A program made the position numbers and the translations under genes. A stretch of DNA of 64,000 bases. It comes from Alphaproteobacteria bacterium. Lineage in GTDB: Bacteria > Pseudomonadota > Alphaproteobacteria > Ferrovibrionales > Ferrovibrionaceae. The notes under the pieces are model-generated. The model ran no database searches, was not told the DNA's origin, and saw only the letters and a program-made list of their open reading frames with translations. Below are positions 330-51,440 of this stretch, in pieces; the first letter of the stretch is position 1, and the number at the start of each line of letters is the position of its first letter. The DNA lies in contig JAFKFH010000015.1 in assembly GCA_017307375.1 (NCBI GenBank), forward strand, positions 124,001 through 188,000, in the 5' to 3' direction.

Positions 330-432
330 GGCGGTTTTGTGCCCCATCGAGCGCGCGAAGCCGGCATCCCGGTATTGTCCGGCATCGGCTGCGTTATGCC
401 CGTTGCCTCCGCAGCCCGCCCTGGCGGAGAAT

Positions 433-454
433 TCGCCTGAAGACAGTCAGGCGA
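433..454 (+). repeat. Conserved hairpin before arsN-like copy 1
   Basis: TCGCCTGA and TCAGGCGA form a perfect 8 bp stem around the 6-base loop AGACAG, ending 10 bases before the TTG start of the GNAT remnant. The identical stem-loop recurs at 47184-47205 before the second copy. It could be a terminator-like or leader structure. Confidence 0.6.
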
Positions 455-464
455 GGACCAGACG

Positions 465-850
465 TTGAAGATTCGCGTGGCTGAAGCGGCCGCCTGCTCG
501 GCTATGTCTACGCCAGCCCCCACCGGGCCCGTGCCGCCTATCGCTGGTCGGTCGACGTGACGGCCTATGTCGCCGAGGGCGCGCGCCGCGGCGGCGTCGG
601 CCGGGCGCTCTACGGCGCGCTGATCAAGATCCTGACCCGGCAGGGCTTCCATTCCGCCTATGCCGGTATCGCCTTGCCCAATGATGCCAGCGTGGCGCTG
701 CACGAGGCGGTGGGGTTCGAGGCGCTCGGCATCTACCGCGAGGTCGGCTTCAAGCACGGCCGCTGGCACGATGTCGGCTGGTGGCGCCGGGCGCTGGCCC
801 AGGCGGCGACGCCGAGTGAGCCGGTGAGGTTCTCCGAGCTCGATCTCTGA
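465..850 (+). pseudogene. arsN-like GNAT acetyltransferase, internally deleted copy
   Basis: The first nine codons (TTG start at 465) and the last two thirds match the gene at 47216. About 150 bases of the middle are missing, with the junction near 491. The deletion also shifts the frame, so reading from 465 meets a stop near 560. The remainder keeps the GNAT acetyl-CoA region (GARRGGVGRALYGAL) and, unlike the other copy, an intact C-terminus ending at 850. The full-length family resembles phosphinothricin or arsinothricin acetyltransferases (ArsN1), which N-acetylate arsinothricin. A short product could start at the GTG at 557, but it would lack the N-terminal half of the fold. A non-functional relic is most likely. 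Confidence 0.8.
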
Positions 851-877
851 TTCCGCAAGACATACGGATGGTGCGTC

Positions 878-1627
878 ATGCAAGAATTGTCGCGGGAAAT
901 TCCGGACGTCGAGACCGTGTTGGCGCTCGAGCCCGAGGAACTAGGTGCCAAGATCCTGTTGCTTCTCCGGCAGCGCGAGCAGCGTAATCCCAGCGCCAGA
1001 GGCCTTCATCACTGCGGAAACCTGCAGAGAGAACCATTCTCCGAAACAGGAGGGATGGTCCACTATCCCCAAAGTCATCGGGATCAGTTCATCCTCGCGT
1101 TCTCTGAGGCGTGGGCATGGCTGGAAGCTCAAGGCCTTCTCGTACCTGCGCCCGGGACGAACGGATCGAGCGGTTGCCGGGTGCTCAGCCGGCGGGCGCG
1201 GCGCTTCGAAGATGCGGCTGACTTCGCTCGATATGCCGCCGCGCGGCGACTACCACGAGACAGCCTGCACCCCGATATCGCCGCCACCGTGTGGTCCGCG
1301 TTCATCCGCGGCGAATATGATGTTGCCGTTTTCCAGGCTATGAAGGCCGTAGAGGTCGCTGTACGTGACGCGTCTGGCTTGGGTGCTAGTGCAGTCGGCG
1401 TACGCTTGGCTCGCGCGGCATTCGCGCCAAAAAATGGTCCGCTGACCGACACGACCGTCGAAGAGGGCGAGCAGGTTGCTCGGATGGAATTGTTCGCCGG
1501 CGCGATCGGATCCTACAAAAACCCTCATTCCCATCGCGACGTGCCACTCGACGACCCGGCCGAAGCGATCGAGATCGTCCTGTTGGCCAATCACCTGCTG
1601 CGGATCGTTGATGCCCGTCGACCTTGA
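878..1627 (+). CDS. TIGR02391 (Ymh) family protein
   Basis: This is a 249-residue protein. Its C-terminal part from about residue 133 reads as the TIGR02391/Ymh domain: SLHPDIAATVWSAFIRGEYD, then FQAMKAVEVAVRD, then an SYKNPHSHR segment. As I recall, Ymh proteins fall in the HEPN superfamily. The RNxxxxH-type position here is KNPHSH, so a canonical catalytic Arg is not evident. The N-terminal 130 residues are not recognised. It begins just after the arsN remnant and is the first gene of the defence block, reading away from it. Such proteins are common in defence islands, but their biochemical role is unknown. Family assignment is fairly sure, function is not. Confidence 0.7.
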   Translation: MQELSREIPDVETVLALEPEELGAKILLLLRQREQRNPSARGLHHCGNLQREPFSETGGMVHYPQSHRDQFILAFSEAWAWLEAQGLLVPAPGTNGSSGCRVLSRRARRFEDAADFARYAAARRLPRDSLHPDIAATVWSAFIRGEYDVAVFQAMKAVEVAVRDASGLGASAVGVRLARAAFAPKNGPLTDTTVEEGEQVARMELFAGAIGSYKNPHSHRDVPLDDPAEAIEIVLLANHLLRIVDARRP

Positions 1628-1684
1628 ATGCCCCCTGGGCTGGTGAACTTTCGCCGGTCCAGACGGCCACTCGGACAGGACTCC

Positions 1685-2176
1685 TCACGATCCGCTATAT
1701 CGCCGCAACCTCAGCTCCACCTCGCGCCGCGGCAGGCGGCAGCGCGGATGAGCCGCGGTCCGGGATAGACAGTCGTGAAGGGTCGGATGGTCGCAGAGTC
1801 CGGCCCGCTCAATCTGGTCGACCACCCACAGCATGCCGTGAACCTCGAGGCCTTCGCCCTCGGCGTACTCGCGCAACCCGCCGTCGCCGGTCAACAAGGT
1901 CCATCGCCGGCCGCTGGCCAGCGCGAAGGCGAAGCTGTCAGCCACGGAGAGCCTCGGATTGGCCCGAACGACCCGCGTCGCATGCGCCACTTCCGCGCCG
2001 TCGAGCGAAACCACATGAATGCCGAAGCCGCGCAGCCGATCCCCCAAGTCGCGAAGCTCCCGTTCGAACAGGAGATCGGGCACTGCGAGGTCATCACCAA
2101 TCCCGAACGCGGCCTGAAGCAAGCCGCCCCGGTCGAGATCGATGATGACCGACGTGTCCGACACCAGGAACGGCAT
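1685..2176 (-). CDS. PIN-domain RNase (putative toxin)
   Basis: This 163-residue protein has the acidic signature of PIN nucleases: Asp7 in the opening SDTSVIID strand, Glu39/Glu41, Asp80 in the ADSFAFALA helix, and Asp98 in LLTGDGGLR. PIN proteins are metal-dependent RNases and usually act as toxins of toxin-antitoxin pairs. The ATG at 2176 lies 3 bases after the stop of the XRE-ImmA/IrrE gene, so the two are translationally linked. That gene is the natural partner. The C-terminal 25 residues are basic and extend beyond the usual PIN fold. The target RNA is unknown. The pair reads away from the CBASS operon and shares an intergenic operator region with it. Confidence 0.8.
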   Translation of the reverse strand: MPFLVSDTSVIIDLDRGGLLQAAFGIGDDLAVPDLLFERELRDLGDRLRGFGIHVVSLDGAEVAHATRVVRANPRLSVADSFAFALASGRRWTLLTGDGGLREYAEGEGLEVHGMLWVVDQIERAGLCDHPTLHDCLSRTAAHPRCRLPRREVELRLRRYSGS

Positions 2177-2179
2177 GTG

Positions 2180-3253
2180 CTACATCGCGTTCTCGAGCTG
2201 CTTATCGAGATCAGCGAGGGAAATTCCCAACATCTCGGATGCTCGGCTTTCCCCGATCACGCCTTCAGCCAGGGCGCGGTAGCATAGCCGCTCGAAACGC
2301 TTTGGCTCCTCGTAGTCGGGGGAGATGCACTCCGGTTCCGCGTAGGGGTAAGTACGCCAGCCACGCGCGGAAAACAGGCGGAAGAGAGACGAGAACGCTT
2401 TCTGGTCGAGAATGCCCAGATCGCGGCATCGGAAGGCGATGGCTTGCACGCTGACGCCGAAGCGTTTCTTCAGGGCGACCAGTTCCCCCAGGCTGATGGA
2501 CGATCGGGAGGTCCCCACTTCGGTATGCATGACGTCGGCCGGCATCAGCAGGGCACCGGCAAAGCGGTGAGCCGCCTTCTCCTCGTCCAACCCAGGTACA
2601 ACAGCCATCACCATGTGGCCCAGTTCGTGGGCAAGAGTGAAGCGTTTGCGCTCGGCCCAGGCTATGCGGCGCACCACGATCACCCGGGCCGCATCCCGGC
2701 CCTTGCGCGTGACGCAGGCGGCGAGTCCATCGATATCGTCGAGATCGATGGACAACACTTTGATGCCGCGCTCTTCCAGAAGTTCGGCAAATTTTGGGAT
2801 GGGGTCGTAGCCTAGTCCCCACGCCTCACGCACCGATCGCGCGGCATCTTCGGCATCGCGGAAATCCTTCACGGGATATGGCGCATTCCGTGGCCGATCC
2901 CATTCGATGCTTTTGAGCCCGAGCAACTCCTCGATCGCAAGATATCGCTCGAGGAGCTGCAAGGTCCGGGCTTCGATCGTCGCCTCCTCCTTGGCGCTAC
3001 GCTTCTTGCGGAAGTCGACTCCTTCCAGCGTCAACTCCTCGTCGCTCAAAAGGTAGCTCTCGCTGACACCCAGTGCCGTCGCCAGCGCCATCAGGGCGCG
3101 GGACCCCGGCATGTCTTCGTTTCGCTCGTACTTGCCGATCGCCTGGGCGCTGACGACGTTGCCCATGCGTTCGGCCAGATCACGCAGCGATAGCCCGCTG
3201 GACGAGCGTGCAAGCTTCAGCCTCGTGCCGATCATAGCCTTCCAACCTTTCAC
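2180..3253 (-). CDS. XRE-type HTH regulator fused to ImmA/IrrE metallopeptidase
   Basis: Residues 8-65 form an XRE helix-turn-helix (LSLRDLAERMG, SAQAIGKYERN). Residues 145-260 form an ImmA/IrrE (COG2856) zinc peptidase domain with HELGH at 209-213 inside FTLAHELGHMVM. Proteins of this layout act as antitoxins or as cleavable-repressor regulators of mobile elements and defence genes. It is cotranscribed with the PIN gene. It diverges from the CBASS CD-NTase gene 130 bp away, with a perfect 11 bp inverted repeat in the gap. In some CBASS loci separate HTH (CapH) and peptidase (CapP) proteins control expression. This fusion could do both jobs, but that is inference. The start is GTG at 3253 or ATG at 3235; the second keeps the whole HTH. 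Confidence 0.85.
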   Translation of the reverse strand: MKGWKAMIGTRLKLARSSSGLSLRDLAERMGNVVSAQAIGKYERNEDMPGSRALMALATALGVSESYLLSDEELTLEGVDFRKKRSAKEEATIEARTLQLLERYLAIEELLGLKSIEWDRPRNAPYPVKDFRDAEDAARSVREAWGLGYDPIPKFAELLEERGIKVLSIDLDDIDGLAACVTRKGRDAARVIVVRRIAWAERKRFTLAHELGHMVMAVVPGLDEEKAAHRFAGALLMPADVMHTEVGTSRSSISLGELVALKKRFGVSVQAIAFRCRDLGILDQKAFSSLFRLFSARGWRTYPYAEPECISPDYEEPKRFERLCYRALAEGVIGESRASEMLGISLADLDKQLENAM

Positions 3254-3260
3254 TCCCTCA

Positions 3261-3372
3261 GTTTACAAAATCAGATGTTTTATCTATTTTGTAAACCGAC
3301 ACCCCCTTGAAAAACCGTAGCGATGACACAATGTCCGCCGCCATCGTGACTTTGGAACGCAAATTTGTAAAC
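3261..3372. promoter_or_regulatory. Palindromic operator between XRE-ImmA/IrrE and CBASS
   Basis: GTTTACAAAAT (3261-3271) and ATTTTGTAAAC (3286-3296) are perfect inverted repeats separated by 14 AT-rich bases. A third half site, ATTTGTAAAC, lies at 3363-3372, only 11 bases before the CD-NTase start codon. The placement between two divergent units suggests binding by the XRE domain, controlling the TA-like pair (full dyad) and perhaps CBASS (extra half site). Confidence 0.7.
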
Positions 3373-3383
3373 CGGAGTTTCAT

Positions 3384-4631
3384 ATGAACTCGATCTATCG
3401 GGGCGACCATCGCCCGCCCGACCCGTTCGGCGACCCGCTCGACGCAATCTTGGCCGAGATCGCGATCAACCTGCAGTTGCCGCCGGGGTTGCATGGCTCG
3501 GCAACATCGCGATTTCTGGCCGTCTGCAGGTACATCGAGCGGCCGGGCAGCCCGCTCGAGGGCCGCGTGGCGTGCTTCTACCCGCAAGGCTCGATGGCGA
3601 TCGACGCGACGATTTCGACGCGCGGCACAGACGACGAATACGACCTCGACGCGGTTGCGGAAATCATCGGCGGCAACGAGACGCCCGAGCAGCTGCTCGA
3701 TCTGCTCGAGAAGGCGCTGCGCAACTACCCTGTCTCGCGCATCGAGCGCAAGACCAGGTGCATCACGCTCTATTACGCCGACGGCATGCACATCGACGTG
3801 ACGCCGGCGCGCCGGCTGGCGCCGAAGGAGAAGGAAAGCGAAATCCCCCATGCCAAGCAGGGCCGGCCTGCCGAGCATCGCTACGTGCCGATGAACGCCT
3901 TCGCCTTCTGCCGTTGGTACAACGAGCGGACGCCCGTCGAGGATCATTTCGCCAAGGTGCTCAACAAGCGGTTGTACGAACAGCACGGCGTGGTCTTCGC
4001 CGAGGCCGACATCGAAGATGTGCCCGATCAGACGCCCCTGATCATCAAGAGCGTGACCACCGTGGCGCTGCAGCTGATCAAGCGGCATCGCAACATCCTC
4101 TATATCGACGAGGCTGGCCGGATGCCGCCGTCTGTGGTCCTGTCCTGCCATGCTGGCCACGCGGCTGTGCGCGGTATCGGTCTCGCCGACATGGTGATCC
4201 GGCAGGCTCGCTGGACCGAGCGTGCGATCAAGCAGGCCGCCGCGGCCAGGCGGCTGCTCGACGTCCGCAATCCCGAATATACCGATGAACGCTTCACCGA
4301 CCGGTGGCCCGAAACCCAGGAGCAACAGCGCGTCTATGCCGATGAGCTCGGGGTTCTGGCCAACGGGCTACAGGCGGCGCGCGAGAAGGGCGCGCAGCTT
4401 GAGGACCTGCAGGCCTGGTTGCGCGAGAAATTCGGACAGCGCGTGGTGACGCGCTCGGTCGAATCGTTCAATGCGTGGCTCGGAAAGCAGGTCCAGGACC
4501 GGGGCCACGGCTATACCCGGTCAGGCGGCCTCTATGTCCCGGCCGCGCCCGCGATCATTACCGGTGCCGGCGCCAGCCAGCTCGCGCCGGTGGCGGCGCG
4601 GGCGCACACCAACATGGGCGAACGGCGCTGA
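3384..4631 (+). CDS. CBASS CD-NTase (cGAS/DncV-like nucleotidyltransferase)
   Basis: This 415-residue nucleotidyltransferase makes a cyclic oligonucleotide signal on phage infection. The catalytic fold is clear: the GS motif at residues 69-70 (YPQGSMAID), the DxD pair at Asp87/Asp89 (DEYDLDAV), and the third acidic residue Asp138 in HIDVTPARR. The C-terminal 150 residues are the helical CD-NTase cap and end in a flexible Ala/Gly-rich tail. In type II CBASS the extreme C-terminus is the site of ubiquitin-like conjugation by the E2-type partner. It is the first gene of a tight three-gene operon with an E2-like protein and an HNH-SAVED effector. The clade, and hence the exact nucleotide product, cannot be told by eye. 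Confidence 0.9.
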   Translation: MNSIYRGDHRPPDPFGDPLDAILAEIAINLQLPPGLHGSATSRFLAVCRYIERPGSPLEGRVACFYPQGSMAIDATISTRGTDDEYDLDAVAEIIGGNETPEQLLDLLEKALRNYPVSRIERKTRCITLYYADGMHIDVTPARRLAPKEKESEIPHAKQGRPAEHRYVPMNAFAFCRWYNERTPVEDHFAKVLNKRLYEQHGVVFAEADIEDVPDQTPLIIKSVTTVALQLIKRHRNILYIDEAGRMPPSVVLSCHAGHAAVRGIGLADMVIRQARWTERAIKQAAAARRLLDVRNPEYTDERFTDRWPETQEQQRVYADELGVLANGLQAAREKGAQLEDLQAWLREKFGQRVVTRSVESFNAWLGKQVQDRGHGYTRSGGLYVPAAPAIITGAGASQLAPVAARAHTNMGERR

Positions 4632-4636
4632 CGACG

Positions 4637-5086
4637 GTGCTGACGATCGATAGCCAGATTGGTCGGATGCAAGAGGTCTGGCCTGAACTGCGCCTGTGCG
4701 CGCACGACGGGCGGGCGGCACTTTGGCGTGGCCCGCTCCGCCCGCTTCTGCAGACTTACACGGTCCAGATCGCCTATAGAACGCCTCTCGTCGCCGAGCT
4801 GTTGGATCCGTGCCGGTTTCAGCCTCGGGTTTCGATCCTGACGCCTCCGCTGCGTCGGCGACCTGGCGACCCCGAAGGGCAGTTGCCGCATGTCTACTAC
4901 GACCCCGACGGAAACGTGACCCTGTGCCTGCTTGATCCGGAAGCAGGCGACTGGTCACTGGCCGACATGCTTGCAGAGACGACGGTGCCCTGGACCATCG
5001 AGTGGCTGGCAGCCTACGAGGGCTGGCGCGCGACGGGTAAATGGACGGCGAGTGGGCGTCACGTGGAGGCAGCGCACCATGTCTAA
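4637..5086 (+). CDS. Stand-alone CBASS E2-like conjugation protein
   Basis: This protein of about 149 residues matches prokaryotic E2-like proteins of CBASS. It has [12 protein letters not shown], then VTLCLLDP with the presumed catalytic Cys97, then [19 protein letters not shown], the C-terminal helix typical of the family. The usual GGG before the last His is replaced by ASGRH. No E1 (ThiF) or JAB partner is present, so this is the type II-short layout, where the E2 alone primes the CD-NTase by linking to its C-terminus. No ATG is close to the upstream stop. I chose the GTG at 4637, five bases after the CD-NTase stop; ATG 4667 is the alternative. It overlaps the effector start by 8 bases. 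Confidence 0.8.
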
Positions 5087-6212
5087 ATCGAGCATACCGC
5101 AAAAATTACAGTCCGCGATCTGGGCGAAGGCCGGCGGACGCTGCGAGTATCGTGGCTGCAACTCTGACCTGGTCGGTGATCTGATAGCCGGGCGCGAGGA
5201 CGGTCTCTACGGCTTCATCGCCCATATCGTCGCCGATCAACCCGGCGGACCGCGTGGTGATCCGGTGCGGTCGAAGCTGCTTGCGCGCAACCTCGGCAAC
5301 TTGATGCTGATGTGCGGTCGTCATCACAAGCTGATCGACCTCGACGCCGTGGATGACCATCCCGAGGATCTCCTATTGGGGATGAAGGCCGATCATGAGG
5401 CACGGATCGCACTTCTCTCAGGTATCGACGAGGATCGCGCTTCCCACGTGATTCGTTTCGGCGCCGGTATCGGCCAGCACGAGGCGCTGGTTTCCACTCA
5501 GGCGATATTCTCGGCGATGCCGCCCGATCGGCACCCTGCTTCTGCCCAGACCATCGATCTCGAATTGCTCAATTTCGCCTGGCGCGATAACGAAGAAGGT
5601 TACTGGCGGCTGCAGGCCGAGAACCTTCGCCGCTTGTTTGCGGATAGGGTCAGGGGGCGCGTCGAGCGTCAGGAAATCCGGCACCTGAGTGTCTTCGCGT
5701 TGGCACCACAACCGCTCCTCATCGAGCTGGGTCGGCTTCTGTGCGATATCGTGCCGGTGACGGTCCATCAGCGTCATCGTGAACCGACGACCTGGCGCTG
5801 GGCGCGGGATCGCGCACCTATTTCCTATCACGTGAGCGAACCATCGCCCGGCCGGTCGGGCCCGGTTGCCCTGAAGCTTGCCGTAAGCGCAAACGTCAAG
5901 GACGAACGCCTGGAAGCGGTGCTCGGGCCAGACACCGCAATCTGGTCGCTGACGGTCGACAACGCACACAACGATATCGTCCGCTGCCCTGAAGATCAGG
6001 CGGAATACCGTCGTCTTCTGCGGATGCTGTACGATCGCATCAAGGCGCACCACGGCGAGAAGGCTACGATCAACGTATTCCCCGCGTTGCCCAATTCGCT
6101 AGCCGTGGAGACCGGCCGCGTATGGATGCCCAAGGCCGATTTGTCGCTGCGCGTCTACGACCAGCAAGGTGACCGGGGTTTTGTCGAAACCTTGACCGTC
6201 AGCAGGGCGTAG
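5079..6212 (+). CDS. CBASS effector, HNH endonuclease-SAVED (Cap5-like)
   Basis: This is a 377-residue effector. Residues 1-100 form an HNH nuclease: Cys22 and Cys27 (RCEYRGC), His49 in FIAHIVAD, Asn71/Asn74, Cys79, His82/83 in [12 protein letters not shown]. Residues from about 170 form a SAVED sensor domain ([19 protein letters not shown], then [12 protein letters not shown], ending [22 protein letters not shown]). In Cap5 proteins, cyclic dinucleotide binding to SAVED drives tetramerisation and indiscriminate DNA cleavage, killing the infected cell. ATG 5079 overlaps the E2 stop, showing translational coupling. It is the last gene of the CBASS operon and ends five bases before the convergent truncated integrase. 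Confidence 0.9.
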
Positions 6213-6216
6213 AACA

Positions 6217-7057
6217 TCACAGCCCGGCGGCCTTACTCAGATTGACCCGGAATCGGCCTCGCCGACGCTGATAGCGCCTAGTCATCTCGGCCGACGCATG
6301 CCCCATCTGTTTCTGGGCATAACGTTCGTCAATATCTGACGACGCAAAGCCAGCGCGTAGCGAATGACCGGCAAACATCGCGGACCGCTCCCCCTCCGGC
6401 GCGTCGGAGCGGACGCCGGCGGCCAGCGCCGTGCGCTTCACCAGGCGGGCGACATGGCGTCCGCTCAGGCGGTCGGGCAAGGCGCGGCTGCCGTCCTGCG
6501 ATATTCTCCGATACACCGGACCGTGGGCGATCCGGCCGAGATGCATCCAGGTTTCCAGCGCCCGGACGGGGCAGCTCAGCTCGCTCGAGCCGCGACCGAT
6601 CTCGACCTCGCGCCAGCGTTCGCCCTTGCCCTTGATGGTGAGGATCACGCCTTCGTCCAGAAGCGTCAGCCAGCCGATACCCTCTTCGGTCTCGCCGCGG
6701 CCGACATCCAGCCCGACGATTTCGCCCCGGCGTAGGCCGCCGGCGTAGCCGAGCAGGAGGATGCTTCGATCGCGCAAGCCGCGGAGATCGCGGCCGTCGA
6801 TCTCGGCCATGCGGATGACATCTTCTGCCAAGACTGCCTCCTTGCCCCGGGGCGGGCGCGCATAGGTGCGGCGAATGCCGGCGAGGACTTGCCCGATGTG
6901 AGGATCGCGCCGGTCGAGTGCCAGGCCGCGCTGGGCGTAGTTCCAGCTCAACCCCGCCAGGCGACGCTCGAGCGTCCCGACCGAGACCTGCTGCCCCGAT
7001 CGCCCGGTGGCGCAGGCCGTCAGGTAGAGGCCGATCGTCGCCGGCGACGGCGGCTGT
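6217..7057 (-). pseudogene. Tyrosine recombinase, 5'-truncated copy
   Basis: The protein encoded here matches the C-terminal three quarters of the intact integrase at 50331-51350 almost residue for residue. It keeps the catalytic set: Arg in GGLRRGEI, HSLRAG, and GHASAEMTRRY with the Tyr nucleophile. Homology continues upstream of the first possible start (TTG 6951) to about 7057. There it stops abruptly in AT-richer sequence with an in-frame TGA. The N-terminal SAM-like DNA-binding domain is therefore lost. It closes the defence block that starts at the arsN remnant, mirroring the order around the intact copy. A shortened catalytic-domain protein from TTG 6951 is possible but unlikely to recombine. 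Confidence 0.85.
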
Positions 7058-43850: not shown

Positions 43851-44737
43851 AGGCTCTCCCGCACCTGGGCATATTTGGCGGCGATGCCGTCAAACAGCGC
43901 CGGCTCGGCCGCGCTGAAGCCGTCCAGGCGCAGTTCCGCCAGCACCGTGCGGCCGAGCGGGTCACCGGCCATGCCCTGCAGCGCCGCGGCGAGCGCCGAG
44001 ACACCCGGCTGGCCAGCGGCCGAGCGCAGGCAGGCGACGGGCGGGAAGCCCAGCCATTCCGAGCGGCGCAGCACCCGGGTGGCACCGACGAGGCCCGGCT
44101 CGGTCTCCTTCATCACCTCCCAGACATAGCCGTCGACCGACCCGCTCTGGGCCAGGCCCGCGGCCACGGCGCGGATTACGTTGCGATGGCCGTAGGTGAA
44201 GAACACCCGGCTGAAGAAACTGTCGGGCGTCGCGCCGAGATCGGCCAGCAGGCAGCGGGTGACGAGAAACCCGGAGTTGCTTTCCGGGTCCGAGAACGCA
44301 TGGATGCCGCCGCGCAGGTCGGCAAAGTCACGGGCGGGCGCGCCCTCCCGCACGATGACGTAGGACTGGTAGAGCGGCCGGCCGCGGAACAGCGGCACCC
44401 CGACCAGGGCCAGGCGGTCGGCGTGCTGGACGAAGGGAAAACCGCAAATCCAGGCGGCGTCGAGCTGGCCGGTCAGCAGCAGCGCGGTGATCTCCTGGTA
44501 GGTGCGCCGCTTGACCAGCGCGACCGGCCCGCCGGTGGCCCGCTCGAGATAGGCCTCGAGGTTCGCCAGGAGCTGGATGTCGGAATCGAGGAAGACCGGG
44601 GTCAGGCCGAAGCTCAGCCCGCCGGCGGCGGCCGCCGGCCTCTGCCGGGCGATGGATAGCGCGCAGGCCACCACCCCGGCGGCCATCATGGCGCGACGGG
44701 TCAAGCCTGGCCCTGGTCGGGCTGCGGGTTTCTGCAT
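43847..44737 (-). CDS. aioX: Periplasmic arsenite-binding protein AioX
   Basis: This 296-residue protein has a Tat-like signal (LTRRAMMAAGVVACALS). It also has a PhnD/phosphonate-binding-type fold (GLTPVFLDSDIQLLANLEAYLE, DAAWICGFPFVQH, SDPESNSGFLVTRCLLADLG). AioX binds As(III) through Cys and starts AioS signalling. Cys residues at ICGF, TRCL and PPVACLRS are candidates. It is the first gene of aioXSR and diverges from the second arsR operon. Confidence 0.92.
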   Translation of the reverse strand: MQKPAARPGPGLTRRAMMAAGVVACALSIARQRPAAAAGGLSFGLTPVFLDSDIQLLANLEAYLERATGGPVALVKRRTYQEITALLLTGQLDAAWICGFPFVQHADRLALVGVPLFRGRPLYQSYVIVREGAPARDFADLRGGIHAFSDPESNSGFLVTRCLLADLGATPDSFFSRVFFTYGHRNVIRAVAAGLAQSGSVDGYVWEVMKETEPGLVGATRVLRRSEWLGFPPVACLRSAAGQPGVSALAAALQGMAGDPLGRTVLAELRLDGFSAAEPALFDGIAAKYAQVRESL

Positions 44738-44781
44738 CGCCCGCTCCGTTTCCTACCCCGGTCATGCCCGCTGTCACGGAA

Positions 44782-44846
44782 CTGTCTTTTGACAGCCCTC
44801 GGACACGCGGCTATGCATGATCCATCATTTCTGTGATTATTGAAAT
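44782..44846. promoter_or_regulatory. Divergent aioX / arsR control region
   Basis: The 109 bp gap holds CTGTC-TTTT-GACAG (44782-44795) and ATTTC / GAAAT arms at 44827-44831 and 44842-44846, the latter touching the arsR start codon. These are plausible ArsR-type operator elements in an AT-richer stretch. Confidence 0.4.
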
Positions 44847-45212
44847 ATGGAAACGAAACAGGTCATCGCAGCGCTTGCCGCTCTCGCCCAGGAAAACCGC
44901 CTCGCGGTCTATCGCCTTCTGGTCGAACGCGGCCCCGCCGGGGAATCGGCTGGCACGATCGCCGCGGCGCTCGAGCTGCCGGCGTCGTCGCTGTCCTTCC
45001 ACCTGGCGCAACTGCGCCATGCCGGGCTGGTGACGCAGCGCCGCCAGAGCCGGCAACTGATCTACGCCGCGGATATTACAGCCATGAACGCGCTGGTCGG
45101 ATATCTGACGGCCAATTGCTGCGGCAATCCCACCACGGCCGCGCCGGTCTGTTGTCCCGTGCCGGCGGTCGCCGAACCCGTCGCCACCAAACGCGCCCGA
45201 GGCCGATCGTGA
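44847..45212 (+). CDS. arsR: ArsR-family repressor (second)
   Basis: This 121-residue repressor has ALAALAQENRLAVYRLLVERG and a recognition segment LPASSLSFHLAQLRHAGLV. Its C-terminal half carries TANCCGNP and PVCCPV, two Cys pairs suited to As(III) sensing. It leads the operon arsR-arsC-acr3 with four-base overlaps, and diverges from aioX. It is a separate lineage from the ArsR at 34220. Confidence 0.9.
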   Translation: METKQVIAALAALAQENRLAVYRLLVERGPAGESAGTIAAALELPASSLSFHLAQLRHAGLVTQRRQSRQLIYAADITAMNALVGYLTANCCGNPTTAAPVCCPVPAVAEPVATKRARGRS

Positions 45213-45712
45213 GCAACCACTACAACGTCCTCTTCCTCTGCACCGGCAACTCCGCCCGGTCGATCCTGGCCGAGAGCCTGCTGAACAGCATGGGCGGCGA
45301 CCGGTTCACCGGCTACAGCGCGGGCAGCTACCCCAAGGGGCAGGTCCATCCGCTCGCGCTCGAACTGTTGGATGGCCTGCACCTGCCGACGGCCGGCCTG
45401 CGCAGCAAGAGCTGGGACGAATTCGCCAAGGCGGGGGCGCCGCCGATCGACTTTATCTTCACCGTCTGCGACTCCGCCGCCGGCGAGGTCTGCCCGGTCT
45501 GGCCAGGCAAGCCGGTCACGGCGCATTGGGGCATTCCGGATCCGGCCGCGGTCGAAGGCCCCGACGAGGTGCGCCGGAAGGCCTTCAAGGATGCCTTCTC
45601 GGCCATGCAGGCCCGCCTGCGGCTGTTCGTCAATCTGCGCCTCGAAGCGCTCGACGGCATGTCGCTGCAGCACGAGCTCGACGCCATCGGCAAGACCACG
45701 GCACCGACATGA
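45209..45712 (+). CDS. arsC: LMW-phosphatase-type arsenate reductase
   Basis: This 167-residue protein has the P-loop LCTGNSARS (CX5R, Cys11) of low-molecular-weight phosphatase-type ArsC. A later Cys pair in TVCDSAAGEVCPVW fits the relay Cys residues, and HWGIPDPA carries the general-acid Asp. The start is GTG 45209 overlapping the arsR stop. This type uses thioredoxin or mycoredoxin-like reductants, unlike the glutaredoxin type at 34549. Confidence 0.92.
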   Translation: MSNHYNVLFLCTGNSARSILAESLLNSMGGDRFTGYSAGSYPKGQVHPLALELLDGLHLPTAGLRSKSWDEFAKAGAPPIDFIFTVCDSAAGEVCPVWPGKPVTAHWGIPDPAAVEGPDEVRRKAFKDAFSAMQARLRLFVNLRLEALDGMSLQHELDAIGKTTAPT

Positions 45713-46782
45713 GCGGCGCGGCCGACACGATCGGCACCCCGGCGCGCCCTGGCCTCGGCGTTTTCGAACGCTATCTGACGATCTGGGTTGGCCTGTGCAT
45801 CGTCGCCGGCATCGCGCTGGGCCATTGGTTTCCGGCCGCGTTCCAGGCGGTCGGCCGGCTTGAGGTGGCCCAGGTCAACCTGCCGGTGGCGGTGCTGATC
45901 TGGCTGATGATCGTGCCGATGCTGCTGAAGATCGATTTCACGGCGCTGGGGCATGTCGCCGGCCAGTGGCGCGGCATCGGGGTGACGCTGTTCATCAACT
46001 GGGCGGTCAAGCCGTTCTCGATGGCGTTGCTCGGCTGGCTGTTCATCGGCTGGCTGTTCCGGCCGCTGCTGCCCGAGGCGCAGATCGACAGCTACATCGC
46101 CGGGCTGATCCTGCTGGCCGCGGCGCCCTGCACCGCGATGGTCTTCGTCTGGTCGAACCTGTGCGACGGCGAGCCGCATTTCACCCTGAGCCAGGTGGCC
46201 GTCAACGACGCCATCATGGTGGTGGCCTTCGCCCCGATCGTCGGCCTGCTGCTCGGCCTGTCGGCGATCACCGTGCCCTGGTCGACGCTGCTCCTGTCGG
46301 TCGCGCTCTACATCGTCATCCCCGTCGCGGTCGCGCAAGCCTGGCGCCGCGGGCTGATCGCCGCCGGCGGCCATGCCGCCCTCGACCGGCTGCTTGCCCG
46401 CCTCGGGCCGCTGTCGCTCGGCGCGCTGCTGCTGACCCTGGTCCTGCTGTTCGGTTTCCAGGGCGAGCAGATCATCGCCCAGCCCGGCGTGATCCTGCTG
46501 CTGGCCGTGCCGATCCTGATCCAGGTCTATTTCAACTCGGGCCTCGCCTATCTGCTGAACCGCTATTTCGGCGTGCCCCACTGCGTCGCCGGGCCCTCGG
46601 CCCTGATCGGCGCCTCCAACTTCTTCGAGCTGGCGGTCGCCGCGGCGATCAGCCTGTTCGGGTTCAATTCCGGTGCCGCGCTCGCCACCGTCGTCGGCGT
46701 GCTGATCGAGGTGCCGGTCATGCTGTCGGTCGTGCGCATCGTCAACGCCAGCAGAGCTTGGTACGAGCGCACGCCCCGCTAG
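45709..46782 (+). CDS. acr3: ACR3 arsenite efflux transporter
   Basis: This 357-residue protein has ten membrane helices and all key ACR3 elements: LIWLMIVPMLLKIDF, the essential Cys in LLAAAPCTAMVFVWS, VNDAIMVVAFAPIVG, and the conserved Glu in FFELAVAAAISLFG and VLIEVPVML. It exports As(III) using the proton gradient. ATG 45709 overlaps the arsC stop. Confidence 0.95.
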   Translation: MSGAADTIGTPARPGLGVFERYLTIWVGLCIVAGIALGHWFPAAFQAVGRLEVAQVNLPVAVLIWLMIVPMLLKIDFTALGHVAGQWRGIGVTLFINWAVKPFSMALLGWLFIGWLFRPLLPEAQIDSYIAGLILLAAAPCTAMVFVWSNLCDGEPHFTLSQVAVNDAIMVVAFAPIVGLLLGLSAITVPWSTLLLSVALYIVIPVAVAQAWRRGLIAAGGHAALDRLLARLGPLSLGALLLTLVLLFGFQGEQIIAQPGVILLLAVPILIQVYFNSGLAYLLNRYFGVPHCVAGPSALIGASNFFELAVAAAISLFGFNSGAALATVVGVLIEVPVMLSVVRIVNASRAWYERTPR

Positions 46783-46826
46783 GGGCCGACACCTCGCCAC
46801 CCACGCAACACGATAATGAGGGGAAC

Positions 46827-47105
46827 ATGCGTCTGCTAGCCGCCACCCTGCTTGCTGTCTCGCTTCTGGTCGGCACCTCGGCCTGCGCGACCGATACGAA
46901 ATCGTCGGCCTACGACAAGCCGGGCTTCACCACCAAGGTCGTCGACGGCCGGCTCTGGGTCTTCCGCAGCGACTCCAAGGAGCTTCAAAACTTCGAGAAG
47001 GGCGTCGAGCCCAGCCAGCTCGTGACCCGGATCGCGGCCGGCCCGGGCGGCATGACTCTCAAGTCCCCGGACGCCAAGATCCTGGACGAGTACCTCGCGA
47101 AGTAA
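46827..47105 (+). CDS. Small exported protein of the ars operon
   Basis: This 92-residue protein has a signal peptide ending LLVGTSACA, which may be a weak lipobox. The mature part contains VDGRLWVFRSDSKELQNFEK and a closing SPDAKILDEYLAK. GAGGGGA precedes ATG 46827. No named family is recognised, though small proteins with similar endings occur after acr3 genes. It lacks Cys apart from that in the signal region. Confidence 0.6.
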   Translation: MRLLAATLLAVSLLVGTSACATDTKSSAYDKPGFTTKVVDGRLWVFRSDSKELQNFEKGVEPSQLVTRIAAGPGGMTLKSPDAKILDEYLAK

Positions 47106-47183
47106 CCTGCGCCCGGGCCGGAGGCAGCCGGCATCGGCAATCCGCGATGCCCGTTGCCCCCGCAGCCCGGCCTGGCGGAGAAT

Positions 47184-47205
47184 TCGCCTGAAGACAGTCA
47201 GGCGA
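47184..47205 (+). repeat. Conserved hairpin before arsN-like copy 2
   Basis: The same stem-loop as at 433-454, with arms TCGCCTGA and TCAGGCGA and loop AGACAG, ending 10 bases before the TTG start. More than 60 surrounding bases are nearly identical in both loci. Confidence 0.6.
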
Positions 47206-47215
47206 GGACGAGACG

Positions 47216-47753
47216 TTGAAGATTCGCGTGGCCGAAACGGCCGATGCCGCGGCGATCCAGACCATCTATGCGCCGATCGTGCGCGAGACGGCGATTTCCT
47301 TCGAGGATGAACCGCCGATCGTCGCGGAGATGGCGCGCCGGATCCAGGACACCCTGGCCGTCTACCCCTACTTGGTCGCCGAGGATGGCGACCACCTGCT
47401 TGGCTATGTCTACGCCAGCCCCCATCGGGCGCGTGCCGCCTATCGCTGGTCGGTCGACGTGACGGCCTATGTCACCGAGGGCGCTCGCCGCGGCGGCGTC
47501 GGCCGGGCGCTCTACGGCGCCCTGCTCGAGATCCTGACCCGGCAGGGTTTCCATTCGGCCTATGCCGGCATCGCCCTGCCCAACGATGCCAGCGTCGCGC
47601 TGCACGAGGCAGTCGGGTTCGAGGCGCCCGGGCGTCTACCGTGAGGTCGGCTTCAAGCACGGCCGCTGGCACGACGTCGGCTGGTGGCGCCGGGCGCTAG
47701 CCCAGGCGACGCCACCGAGCGAGCCGGTGAGGTTTTCTGAGCTCGGCCGATGA
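47216..47753 (+). pseudogene. arsN: arsN-like GNAT acetyltransferase, frameshifted copy
   Basis: From TTG 47216 the frame gives a full GNAT N-terminus (IRVAETADAAAIQTIYAPIV, ETAISFEDEPP) and the acetyl-CoA region GARRGGVGRALYGAL. It then goes out of frame at a GGG near 47626-47630 and stops at 47644. Removing one G restores GVYREVGFKHGRWHDVGWW and the end at 47753, which matches copy 1. The family resembles ArsN1 arsinothricin/phosphinothricin N-acetyltransferases. The frameshift removes the last 37 residues. It is either a recent mutation or a sequencing slip in a G run. Confidence 0.8.
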
Positions 47754-47839
47754 TTTCGGGGTTCAGCAGGGAGACCGGGGTAGCCCGGCGTTGCGCCTGA
47801 TCTGGCGGGCGGCAATCGTATAGGCAGCGACGGCATTCA

Positions 47840-49099
47840 TCAGCTACGGGCGCGTCCGAGGTTCAGGACATGCAGCAGGCCCGGGCGATAGTCGGCGGCT
47901 GGCACGACTGTCGCGCGCAAGCTGGGGTGCTTTTCAAAAAGTGCTAGCCGCTCCGTTTCGCTTTCGCCGTGAAGTCCCGCGAACAGCAGCTGGCATGCGG
48001 CTTCGGTGGCACTCTCACTGGCGGCAAGCGATGTTCTTCCGGCGTAGCGATTGACCAGCGTGTCCGCATCGTCGATCAGGGTTAGGGTTTCGAGGCTCAA
48101 GTGCATGAAGTCCTCGACATACGGGGCTCGCGGTTCTGGCTTGGGTCGCGGATCGAATTGCCAATGTGCCAGACGCTCGTTTCGGAACTTTGTGATTGCC
48201 TTGCAGGACTCAGACGCCCCCAGTGCGACGATGCGTTTTCGTAGCAGCGCTGCATCTACCTTGGTCTGTTCAGCCTCGGTCGCACCCCCCATGAATTCGG
48301 TGAATATATGCAGTTCGCGCTGGACCTCGGTATTGCCCATTGTCCGATGCAGCTCTGGCAGCGATGCGGTTCCTCTTGTAGTGTCCCAAAGCCTGGCGAG
48401 CAGCTGGTTTGATCCGATAATTTCGAGATAAATGAGGCGACGCAGGGTGTCGGCGGCAAGCGTCTTGTCCAGCGCTGGCGACGAGAACTTATCGCTTATC
48501 GCAACAAGCATGCCTCGCGCTTGTGCGAGCCAGCTTGCGCTGAGACGGATAGTAGCCAACAGATTGACCAGCCGACCCATTCCCCTCAACGGATTGCTAC
48601 TTGATCCGGGTCGCGACGGCGTTTCAGCTTCGAACTCTTGTCGCGGGTCGTCGGCTTCATGGTCGCTTTGGGCACCTGCTTCGTCCCGGACTGTGGCCCC
48701 TGCGGTCGCCAGAAGCCGCGCCAGCAAGGCACCCATTTCCTGATCAATCAGGGCCAGATCCGTTGCCGGCGCCAGCAACCGCGGTGCCGGAGGTGCCGCG
48801 CGGTTCAACTCGCGCAGCCGCGCCACCTCGTCATAGGTGGGAGCACGATGAGCCTTCTCGGTATTGCAGGGCGAGCAGGCGAAAACCTTGTTGGACCAAT
48901 CCTTCCGGCCGCCTCGCGCAATCGGAAAGACGTGCTCCTTCGTATAGAAGCGCCCGTCACCCTTGGGGTGACCTTTGCCGGCTGCCTGCCGAAGCAACGG
49001 TTTCTGGCAATAGAAACATTGGCCACCTTGCGCGTCGAAGCGCGCCGCCACCGCCTTGTCATCCAGTGCATTGCTGCGACTGCTGCCGTTTTTCTTCAT
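47840..49099 (-). CDS. HNH nuclease fused to HEPN/AbiU2-like domain
   Basis: This 419-residue protein has an N-terminal HNH nuclease with zinc Cys pairs Cys28/Cys31 and Cys75/Cys78, and catalytic-type His56 (KEHVFPIARGG), Asn70 and His84. The middle, about residues 110-190, is acidic and probably disordered. The C-terminal helical domain carries RNERLAH (Arg306 to His312) followed by a W and an acidic helix, resembling AbiU2/HEPN-type abortive-infection RNases. The Rx5H spacing fits HEPN. It lies 33 bp downstream of an AbiJ-like gene on the same strand, so the two probably form one defence operon. The fusion itself is not one I know as a named system. Confidence 0.7.
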   Translation of the reverse strand: MKKNGSSRSNALDDKAVAARFDAQGGQCFYCQKPLLRQAAGKGHPKGDGRFYTKEHVFPIARGGRKDWSNKVFACSPCNTEKAHRAPTYDEVARLRELNRAAPPAPRLLAPATDLALIDQEMGALLARLLATAGATVRDEAGAQSDHEADDPRQEFEAETPSRPGSSSNPLRGMGRLVNLLATIRLSASWLAQARGMLVAISDKFSSPALDKTLAADTLRRLIYLEIIGSNQLLARLWDTTRGTASLPELHRTMGNTEVQRELHIFTEFMGGATEAEQTKVDAALLRKRIVALGASESCKAITKFRNERLAHWQFDPRPKPEPRAPYVEDFMHLSLETLTLIDDADTLVNRYAGRTSLAASESATEAACQLLFAGLHGESETERLALFEKHPSLRATVVPAADYRPGLLHVLNLGRARS

Positions 49100-49132
49100 G
49101 CCCCCTCTGGCCGCACATTCGGTGTCATAGAA

Positions 49133-50263
49133 TCAGTTTTTACCGGCCGTTCGGGCTGACCACGTCGATACGAGAAACATTGAAATCGACCCCGCTAAAT
49201 TGACCGCAAGTTCAGCATGTCGTGCCAAGGGCCTCACTGGCTTCTTTCCCTGGCCGTGGGAATCTCCAAGTTGGTTTCGAACGGCCGCCAGACCCCCGAC
49301 CACAGCCTGGCAGCCGCCGAGGATCGTCTTGAAAACGGCTTCCGAATGCTGGTTCGGAGCCAGTCTCAGCGATTCCGCGGCCTTGGCATAGAGTTTCGGT
49401 AGGTCATCCCTCGACCCGTACGTCCCACCCCCCTCTTCGATGATGTGCTTGCAGACGGATTCCAGTAGCGATTTTGCCGCGGTGATCGCGCCGTCCGGAT
49501 CGTTCCGCCGGCGCGCCAGCGCTTTTTCCCAAGCAGCGTGGACGCCACCCTCATCGAAGGACTTCAGCGCTTTTGAAATATCAGGGTCGGCCGGAGGTGT
49601 TCCGGTCGGCATCGACTGAACACCGTATGATGGATATCCGGACACCTGTCGTGTCACTACCAAGTGAAACCCATCGCGCTCCAGGATCGGGTTCAGGGCT
49701 TGGATAATGGCATCTTGCTCATTCTGGTTTCGGCGTTTCGGGTCAACCACGTCAGCCAAAAAGGCAAAAATCGTAGCTTGGGAGCAGTTCCGAAATCCTA
49801 CGGCATCCAGGGTATCGCGATTGCTCCAGTCATCATGGTCAACAGCGTGCCGCCAGATTTTTTCCGCAAGCGATTCACCGAAATCGATAGGCCTTTCTAT
49901 GCCCGGCCAGTGGGAACGCATCATCTCCACCAGCTCGAGGTCGCCTGATAGCGAGAAAGGTTCCAGGGCTTTCATCAGGTGCAGTCGCGTCAAGTCGGTC
50001 ACAAGGCCGCCCTCGTTCCTGAGTTGTGCGACGGCAGCCTGCAGCTTGTCGGACCGGTGATCCGCCAGGACCCGCTCGGCGATCACGAGCACCTGCTCGT
50101 CGGAAAGATTTTTCAGGCGCGACAGGACATAGGTTTTCTTGCTTGCAAATGCCTCCTGGTCGTTCCCGGGCGCCAAGCCGTACCTCTCGCACGCTGCGGG
50201 CAACTCGTAAGACTTGGTCGGATAAAGTGCTTCTGCGACCAGATGCCTAATCTGGGATTTCAT
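49133..50263 (-). CDS. AbiJ-type abortive infection protein with HEPN Abi_C domain
   Basis: This 376-residue protein has an N-terminal helical AbiJ_NTD-like region (EALYPTKSYELPAACERYGL, NLSDEQVLVIAERVL). The C-terminal Abi_C domain reads ITAAKSLLESVCKHIIEE and a closing RNQLGDSHG with Arg329 and His336, the HEPN RNase signature. Such proteins cut RNA in response to phage and stop growth. ATG 50263 is used. It starts 70 bp beyond the 3' end of the integrase and is followed by the HNH-HEPN gene. Confidence 0.82.
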   Translation of the reverse strand: MKSQIRHLVAEALYPTKSYELPAACERYGLAPGNDQEAFASKKTYVLSRLKNLSDEQVLVIAERVLADHRSDKLQAAVAQLRNEGGLVTDLTRLHLMKALEPFSLSGDLELVEMMRSHWPGIERPIDFGESLAEKIWRHAVDHDDWSNRDTLDAVGFRNCSQATIFAFLADVVDPKRRNQNEQDAIIQALNPILERDGFHLVVTRQVSGYPSYGVQSMPTGTPPADPDISKALKSFDEGGVHAAWEKALARRRNDPDGAITAAKSLLESVCKHIIEEGGGTYGSRDDLPKLYAKAAESLRLAPNQHSEAVFKTILGGCQAVVGGLAAVRNQLGDSHGQGKKPVRPLARHAELAVNLAGSISMFLVSTWSARTAGKN

Positions 50264-50330
50264 CCTTCGCCCCCCTTTTGCCGGCCGCGCGGCTTTTTAT
50301 TATGCGGCACCCGTCTCGTTCGGCGGCAAT

Positions 50331-51350
50331 CTAAAGGCCGGCGGCTTTTGTCATATTTACTCTGAACCGGCCGCGGCGGCGCTGATAGCGCCGCGTCATC
50401 TCCGCCGACGCATGCCCCATCTGTTTCTGGGCATAACGTTCGTCAATATCTGATGACGCAAAGCCAGCGCGAAGCGAATGACCGGCAAACATGGCTGATC
50501 GCTCGCCCTCCGACGCGTCGCCACGGATGCCGGCGGCGAGCGCCGTGCGCTTTACCAGGCGAGCGACGTGACGCCCGCTCAGGCGGTCGGGCAAGGCACG
50601 CATGCCGTCCTGCGAGATGCGCCGGAACACCGGCCCATGGGCAATCCGGCCAAGATGCAGCCAGGTCTCCAGCGCGCGAACAGGGCAGCTCAACTCGCTC
50701 GAGCCGCGGCCGATCTCGACCTCGCGCCAGCGCTCCCCCTTGCCCTTGATGGTGAGGAGCATCCCCTCCTCCAGGAGGGCCAACCAGCCGACGCCTTCTT
50801 CAGTCTCGCCGCGGCCGACATCCAGTCCGACGATCTCGCTGCGGCGAAGACCGCCGGCGTATCCCAGCAGCAAGATGCTGCGATCGCGCAGACCACGCAG
50901 ATCGCGGCCGTCAATCTCAGCCATACGGATGACGTCTTCCGCCAGCACCGGCTCCTTGCCGACGGACGGGCGCGCGTAGGTGCGGCGGATGCCGGCAAGG
51001 ACCTGGGCGATATGCGGGTCTCGCCGATCGATCACGAGGCCGCGCTGGGTGTAGTGCCAGCTCAGCCCGGCTAGGCGGCGCTCCAGGGTGCCTACGGATA
51101 TCTGTTCGCCGGCGCGACCCGTGGCGCAAGCCGTGAGGTAGAGGCCGATCGTCGGCGGCGACGGCGGCAGGGCCGACAGCCCCTTGGAAGCACACCAGGC
51201 GGAGAAATGGCGCCAGTCAGCCCCGTACGCGCGCCGGGTGTTGGCCGATTGTGCTCGACGGGCGAACTCGCGGGCCTTCTCGGCGAGGGTCTCCAGATGG
51301 GAGAGCTCTGTCGGTGTCGCCGCCAGGGCGGGGAGGGTCTCGTCGGTCAC
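50331..51350 (-). CDS. Tyrosine site-specific recombinase (intact copy)
   Basis: This 339-residue recombinase has an N-terminal SAM-like core-binding domain (ANTRRAYGADWRHFSAWC). The catalytic domain has Arg in GGLRRSEI, HSLRAGF, and GHASAEMTRRY with the nucleophilic Tyr. The C-terminus is basic. It resembles XerC-like integrases of plasmids rather than lambda-type phage integrases. A truncated near-copy is at 6217. Two large inverted repeats lie 33-90 bp upstream of its start and are candidate binding or crossover sites. It closes the second defence cargo. Confidence 0.92.
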   Translation of the reverse strand: MTDETLPALAATPTELSHLETLAEKAREFARRAQSANTRRAYGADWRHFSAWCASKGLSALPPSPPTIGLYLTACATGRAGEQISVGTLERRLAGLSWHYTQRGLVIDRRDPHIAQVLAGIRRTYARPSVGKEPVLAEDVIRMAEIDGRDLRGLRDRSILLLGYAGGLRRSEIVGLDVGRGETEEGVGWLALLEEGMLLTIKGKGERWREVEIGRGSSELSCPVRALETWLHLGRIAHGPVFRRISQDGMRALPDRLSGRHVARLVKRTALAAGIRGDASEGERSAMFAGHSLRAGFASSDIDERYAQKQMGHASAEMTRRYQRRRGRFRVNMTKAAGL

Positions 51351-51382
51351 CGAGAGGGTTCCGGGGCTGTTTTCGGCCTTTT

Positions 51383-51402
51383 CAGCCTATCCGAATAGGC
51401 TG
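51383..51402. repeat. 8 bp hairpin upstream of integrase
   Basis: CAGCCTAT (51383-51390) and ATAGGCTG (51395-51402) form a perfect inverted repeat around CCGA. It lies 33 bp before the integrase start and 8 bp from a larger dyad. It could be an operator or an accessory recombinase site. Confidence 0.6.
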
Positions 51403-51409
51403 CGGAAAT

Positions 51410-51440
51410 CATGTCCGATAATTGAAACTTATCGGACATG
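51410..51440. repeat. 12 bp inverted repeat with 7 bp centre, possible recombination core
   Basis: CATGTCCGATAA (51410-51421) and TTATCGGACATG (51429-51440) are perfect 12 bp arms around TTGAAAC. Tyrosine recombinase cores have paired 11-13 bp arms around a 6-8 bp crossover region, so size and place, between the integrase and the DUF1403 gene, fit such a site. An operator for a divergent promoter is the other option. Confidence 0.6.

Follow-up and report, generated by a model that had tools for sequence, protein, structure and literature searches.

Do two adjacent genes, one encoding an AbiJ-type protein and the other joining an HNH nuclease domain to an RNERLAH-bearing HEPN-type domain, constitute a single defence system directed against both DNA and RNA, as was suggested in a preliminary description of this locus, or are they separate defence genes carried together by a mobile element? 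Both open reading frames (ORFs) were recovered from the ORF list of the 64-kb window (the whole stretch of DNA that was analysed) at the described positions and on one strand, being separated by 33 nt (Table 1), and the alignments bear out the numbering of the five residues that had been singled out (His56, Arg306, His312, Arg329, and His336). The “integrase slot” in which the pair had been placed is right in substance, since the pair lies downstream of a tyrosine recombinase gene whose end is 67 nt away from the start of AbiJ. The GC contents of the two genes (60% and 58%) are below the 66% of the window; in both, as in neighbouring genes, GC is lowest at the second codon position, with third-position GC being raised less in the pair than in its neighbours. 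A promoter scan returned none, and two terminator-like sites were found, fewer than the shuffled mean.

Table 1. Features of the gene pair, its slot, and the second slot copy, by position in the 64-kb window.
Feature	Position	Strand	Basis or remark
HNH–HEPN(AbiU2-like) fusion gene	47840..49099	-	419 aa; ORF, Pfam, motif alignments
HNH nuclease domain, about residues 28-86 (C28, C31, H56, C75, C78, N79)	48842..49018	-	Pfam, alignment
AbiU2-like HEPN domain, residues 215-351	48047..48457	-	AbiU2 profile built without the fusion; PF18734 24.2 bits
RNERLAH motif, R306-H312	48164..48184	-	In register with R....AH of AbiU2 relatives
AbiJ-type gene: AbiJ_NTD3 + Abi_C HEPN	49133..50263	-	376 aa; Pfam, PADLOC, relatives
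RNQLGDSH motif, R329-H336	49256..49279	-	Invariant residues in 8 sequences
Tyrosine recombinase	50331..51350	-	Phage_integrase 54.7 bits; co-directional, upstream of pair
Palindrome ATGTCCGATAA-N7-TTATCGGACAT	51411..51439	.	11-base arms, 7-base spacer
GNAT acetyltransferase gene, left end of slot	47216..47644	+	Pfam; second copy at 379-855
Second, decayed slot-end copy with other cargo	379..7054	.	GNAT remnant 379-855; recombinase remnant 6221-7054
Second-slot cargo	878..6212	.	Six genes, rows below
Ymh-type HEPN gene (PF09509)	878-1627		Second-slot cargo
PIN-like ORF	1685-2176		Second-slot cargo; no profile match
RmrA-like HTH/M78 gene	2180-3253		Second-slot cargo
CD-NTase gene	3384-4631		Second-slot cargo
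E2 gene	4628-5086		Second-slot cargo
HNH-SAVED effector gene	5076-6212		Second-slot cargo

The fusion protein was shown to match the Pfam families HNH_5 (40.1 bits) and HNH (28.6 bits) above their curated cut-offs, and C28, C31, E55-H56, C75, C78, and N79 are in register with those of other HNH domains wherever the aligned rows extend that far. On the strength of the profile match, and with its H, N, and Cys residues preserved, this half is predicted to be an active nuclease. The best match among solved structures was the HNH endonuclease 4h9d (E 0.0095), and PADLOC gave only weak HNH-type matches. NCBIfam returned Cas9d, IscB, and Csn1 models only, all far below cut-off; Cas9d (31.4 bits against a cut-off of 375) and IscB (18.7 bits against 175) were rejected as identities for the HNH part, the rest of either protein being unmatched. 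Septu (PtuAB) consists of a PtuB-type HNH protein and a PtuA ATPase partner, and was likewise rejected because the best PtuB match reached 17 bits over 37 residues and the neighbouring gene is AbiJ, not PtuA. The fusion thus has the HNH piece alone in common with PtuB, IscB, and Cas9d.

The C-terminal half is more divergent from its Pfam family. HEPN_AbiU2 (PF18734) scored 24.2 bits (E 2.6e-5) on the whole fusion and 25.6 bits on the C-terminal part alone, neither reaching the cut-off of 26.8, and the half is therefore termed AbiU2-like rather than a member of AbiU2. Because this match was borderline, the half was re-examined with an AbiU2 profile of our own, made from eight ORFs that were extracted by script from ten loci above the cut-off; the fusion was left out, the free-standing AbiU2 gene of the own genome was included, and the omissions were L054 and L055 (no ORF satisfying the overlap rule) together with L058 and L059 (under the cut-off). 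The profile scored 30.6 bits on residues 215-351 of the fusion, R306 and A311-H312 falling on the conserved R....AH, at an E-value of 1.3e-11 in a one-protein search and of 1e-8 when all ORFs of 23 AbiU2 loci were searched. It recovered 20 of those 23 loci at E 0.01, missing L055, L079, and L080. Comparison of the fusion with five AbiU2 proteins using hhalign gave 85% over residues 207-380, as against 0.2% for a control with the AbiJ protein; in one AbiU2 alignment, a single row (L048) has the motif out of register. AlphaFold models from single sequences were helical, with mean pLDDT values of 40.3 for the whole fusion and 39.1 for its C-terminal part, too low for the models to be of use. Taken from sequence, the profile comparisons support the RNERLAH-bearing segment as an AbiU2-like HEPN domain with a putative HEPN fold, and the HNH–HEPN architecture originally proposed is upheld at that level, the HNH domain exceeding its Pfam cut-off and R306/H312 lying on the AbiU2 motif. 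The fusion shares the aligned L.R.WD and R....AH stretches with AbiU2 and departs from it in the attached N-terminal HNH domain and in the PF18734 score.

PF18734 had a match in 12 of 190 sampled genomes of the class, the own genome counted. The HEPN half has its closest relative on the window's own contig, in a free-standing AbiU2 gene that scores 55.3 bits and exceeds the cut-off. At L086:8973-11546 on that contig, a PDC-S65 SIR2 gene (SIR2_2 domain; PADLOC) stands immediately upstream of this AbiU2 gene, and these two genes are possibly another two-gene defence unit.

The upstream protein had been described as an AbiJ/Abi_C protein carrying RNQLGDSH, and this assignment stands: AbiJ_NTD3 (105.7 bits, cut-off 32.5) and Abi_C (66.5 bits, cut-off 24) were both well matched in Pfam, and R329, D334, and H336 of the R....DxH motif are invariant across eight AbiJ sequences. 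The PADLOC AbiJ model matched at 61.2 bits over residues 234-365, i.e. the C-terminal part only, and nothing below E 1 was found for the protein among solved structures. Ten relatives on plasmids share 39-49% identity with it along almost its entire length. Among 385 sampled genomes of the class searched at E 1e-30, seven matched, the own genome included, the other six through the Abi_C part only; two Abi_C relatives were found in viral contigs. The protein agrees with AbiJ as defined by PADLOC and in the available part of PMC3710099 in having both domains above the Pfam cut-offs and the motif retained, and differs in that an HNH–HEPN gene comes next. It may, as an AbiJ-type protein, protect against phage.

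Whether the AbiJ and fusion genes belong together was approached from the AbiJ side. Of 195 plasmid records that gave a match to the AbiJ protein, 12 covered at least 80% of the query at one site, and these 12 were taken with flanks of 5-6 kb (two being clipped on one side at the record end). The set includes two closely similar Ti plasmids; the AbiJ match is split over several frames or pieces in L025 and L096, is only 29% identical in L097, and lies in an unannotated record in L033. Neither the HNH nor the AbiU2 profile matched near the AbiJ relative in any of the 12, an absence that is not complete since other types of HNH are beyond the reach of the HNH profile and some true AbiU2 members escape the AbiU2 profile. 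The neighbours vary, comprising recombinases, an RHE_PE00001 gene, WGR genes, a DNA methyltransferase, an S8 peptidase, and a TIGR02391-family gene; some are close and co-directional, differing between records. The TIGR02391-family gene, which we presume may be a HEPN gene, lies about 1 kb upstream of the AbiJ relative in the two Ti plasmid records. With shorter flanks, the Abi_C relatives of six genomes of the class and of two viral contigs had no HNH or AbiU2 match nearby either. The proposal that the pair forms one system found no support here: homologues of AbiJ were rarely, in fact in none of the 12 records, accompanied by homologues of the fusion, which is the outcome that the preliminary description had named as counting against it, and the sole other pair found belongs to the same moved block on a Rhizorhabdus contig. 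That the pair is known from one event speaks against a conserved two-gene system, though a young one would still be compatible with it.

That block was identified in a contig scan based on exact 8-residue stretches, which reaches close relatives only and yielded five loci, namely one full-length copy of the fusion (L028) and four HNH-only matches. The full-length copy resides on NZ_JAGMXV010000017.1, a contig of a Rhizorhabdus metagenome-assembled genome, and differs from positions 42305-51440 of the window (9.1 kb) by two mismatches, one of them within the fusion gene. Identity falls sharply past 51440, i.e. at the palindrome, the DUF1403 and ScpB genes beyond being far more diverged, and the Rhizorhabdus contig terminates near the left edge of the near-identical block. 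Since Rhizorhabdus belongs to the Sphingomonadales and the window to another order (18 genomes, one family), a move between orders is suggested; the Rhizorhabdus contig may possibly be misbinned.

Elsewhere, the fusion query gave HNH-only matches in 16 of the 18 genomes of its own order, besides the own genome. Of 385 genomes sampled from the class, 3 had such a match at E 1e-8, few candidates having been scored in each. The HEPN part was matched by the own genome alone among samples of 385 class and 249 phylum genomes that include it. One plasmid record matched the query, by HNH over 16% of the fusion; neither the HEPN part, even at E 1, nor the AbiU2 relative from the own genome had any plasmid match. 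No relative of the fusion was found in phages or viral contigs, the latter also being without a match to three AbiU2 proteins used as queries, and this HNH type was detected by profile in none of 22 other AbiU2 loci (three of which are under the Pfam cut-off; flanks extending for about 1.5 kb or as far as the contig ran). The fusion thus looks rare, with no independent full-length relative in the genomes, plasmids, and phages searched. An HNH–AbiU2 fusion was likewise not encountered in the literature searched, which takes in a minority of the subscription papers. Fusions of HEPN with HNH have been published for other HEPN families of the Abi2/Swt1 group (PMC3710099, in the part available); RNase-type and DNase-type domains are united in one protein there, as here, although the HEPN families are different and ParB domains are also present. 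For AbiU2 itself, the same part of that source gives Sel1-repeat and restriction-modification genes as operon partners and makes no mention of an HNH fusion.

The space between the GNAT gene and the recombinase is taken up by the AbiJ and fusion genes plus short spacers. Self-comparison of the window revealed a second copy of both slot ends, with GNAT sequences at 379-855 and 47128-47758 being 91.4% and 90.6% identical in two pieces and recombinase sequences at 6221-7054 and 50335-51168 being 84.1% identical. This second slot is decayed, its GNAT gene being internally deleted and its recombinase lacking the N-terminal part, and it carries other cargo. The ORF at 1685-2176 is one that we take to resemble a PIN protein. 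Together, the CD-NTase, E2, and HNH-SAVED genes are parts of a CBASS system, while Ymh is a HEPN family according to the part of PMC3710099 available. No finding argues more strongly for the pair being defence cargo than the presence of CBASS parts in a second copy of the slot, and the defence setting proposed at the outset is borne out to that extent.

The recombinase itself has relatives in 700 plasmid records (E up to 1e-40), from the top of which list, rather than by random draw, eight plasmids were taken. A DUF1403 gene lies within the stretch in seven of the eight and repC in six, and toxin–antitoxin-type genes (RelE-HTH, AbiEii with a hypothetical gene, VapBC, and RES-Xre twice) lie directly downstream of the related recombinase in five. 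DUF1403 and ScpB genes adjoin the recombinase in the window too (Pfam). RepC (PF03428) had no match in the 41 contigs of the own genome, which a diverged RepC could escape, and a repABC plasmid is therefore unsupported here. Lying 60 bases upstream of the recombinase start, the palindrome is unique in the window at up to three mismatches and is the sole exact match in the own genome. Its arms recur exactly upstream of the recombinase in two of the eight plasmids (at 0.4 and 1.6 kb) and in altered form in another two (at about 50 bases and 0.85 kb), with none found in the remaining four. Exact matches to the inner arms were also obtained in 12 viral stretches; only two of these have a related recombinase, so the role of the palindrome rests on the plasmids. 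It is probably the core site of the recombinase.

We incline, with some reserve, to the explanation that two abortive-infection-type genes, each able to act alone, have been stacked as mobile cargo, because HEPN Abi proteins are predicted in PMC3710099 to be RNases acting through suicide or a block of phage growth. The domains and motifs, AbiJ relatives without an HNH–HEPN partner, AbiU2 genes without this HNH type, the free-standing AbiU2 relative, the CBASS genes of the second slot, the toxin–antitoxin-type genes downstream of related recombinases, and the lower GC of the pair speak for this reading. Against it stand the single independent occurrence of the fusion, the close co-directional neighbours of some AbiJ relatives, which vary from one to another, the TIGR02391-family gene of the two Ti plasmid records, and the score of the HEPN half under its Pfam cut-off. 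The 33-nt gap, the shared strand, and the joint transfer suit the main rival, one two-component system, just as well, in which AbiJ and the fusion would form a complex, AbiJ sensing and the fusion or both proteins destroying DNA and RNA. Such a system would also accord with a slot that contains these two genes plus short spacers and with their joint movement in a 9.1-kb block with two mismatches; the own-genome AbiU2 relative is likewise the downstream member of a pair, and paired HEPN genes do exist, the Bxe_C0808 HEPN family being in an operon with AbiU2 (PMC3710099, available part). With such a partner in none of the 12 AbiJ records and no independent second pair found, we nevertheless regard one system as unlikely. 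The fuller proposition, that of an undescribed system whose HNH–AbiU2-like protein destroys DNA and RNA under the gating of AbiJ and which has passed between orders in a defence-exchanging, recombinase-linked slot, strikes us as doubtful.

A maintenance pair akin to toxin–antitoxin modules, one protein restraining the other until loss of the element frees the toxin, would be in keeping with the toxin–antitoxin-type genes that occupy the equivalent position in five of the eight related plasmids; the nuclease-type motifs are, however, intact in both proteins, no antitoxin family was matched in Pfam, and AbiJ relatives occur without an HNH–HEPN partner, which makes this quite improbable. It is very improbable that the fusion gene has no function, being in decay or a product of chance, next to a working AbiJ gene: the single independent occurrence and a divergent HEPN half scoring under its Pfam cut-off would fit, but the key residues are intact in both domains and the frame is open through 419 codons.

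Under the favoured reading of independent stacked cargo, the pair would ride as mobile defence cargo in a slot adjoining a plasmid-type tyrosine recombinase. The N-terminal part of AbiJ would restrain the protein or sense infection, in line with the N-terminal domains of HEPN Abi proteins being seen as sensors or restraints (PMC3710099, in the part available), whereupon the Abi_C HEPN domain would cut RNA and growth would stop. The HNH–HEPN protein may serve as a DNase/RNase suicide effector, its HNH domain cutting or nicking DNA and its AbiU2-like HEPN domain cutting RNA. All of these activities, the trigger, the co-transcription of the genes, and the independence of both are what we infer from the sequence and its comparisons. 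According to PMC3710099, fusions of HEPN with DNase domains arose several times, and strong selection for their linkage was deduced there. If active, the present protein would unite a DNase with a suicidal RNase of the AbiU2-like HEPN type, a combination not found in the literature searched, and it offers a clean test case for the target of HEPN–DNase fusions, be it phage DNA, host RNA, or both. An exchange of defence cargo next to a plasmid-type recombinase is shown by the two slots, and such surroundings are a convenient place in which to seek further systems. Beside the slot, at 43847-46782, lie genes for a phosphonate-binding protein, an ArsR-type regulator, an LMWPc-type protein, and an SBF-type protein (Pfam), which together resemble an arsenic cluster, the LMWPc-type protein presumably being ArsC-like and the SBF-type protein ACR3-like.
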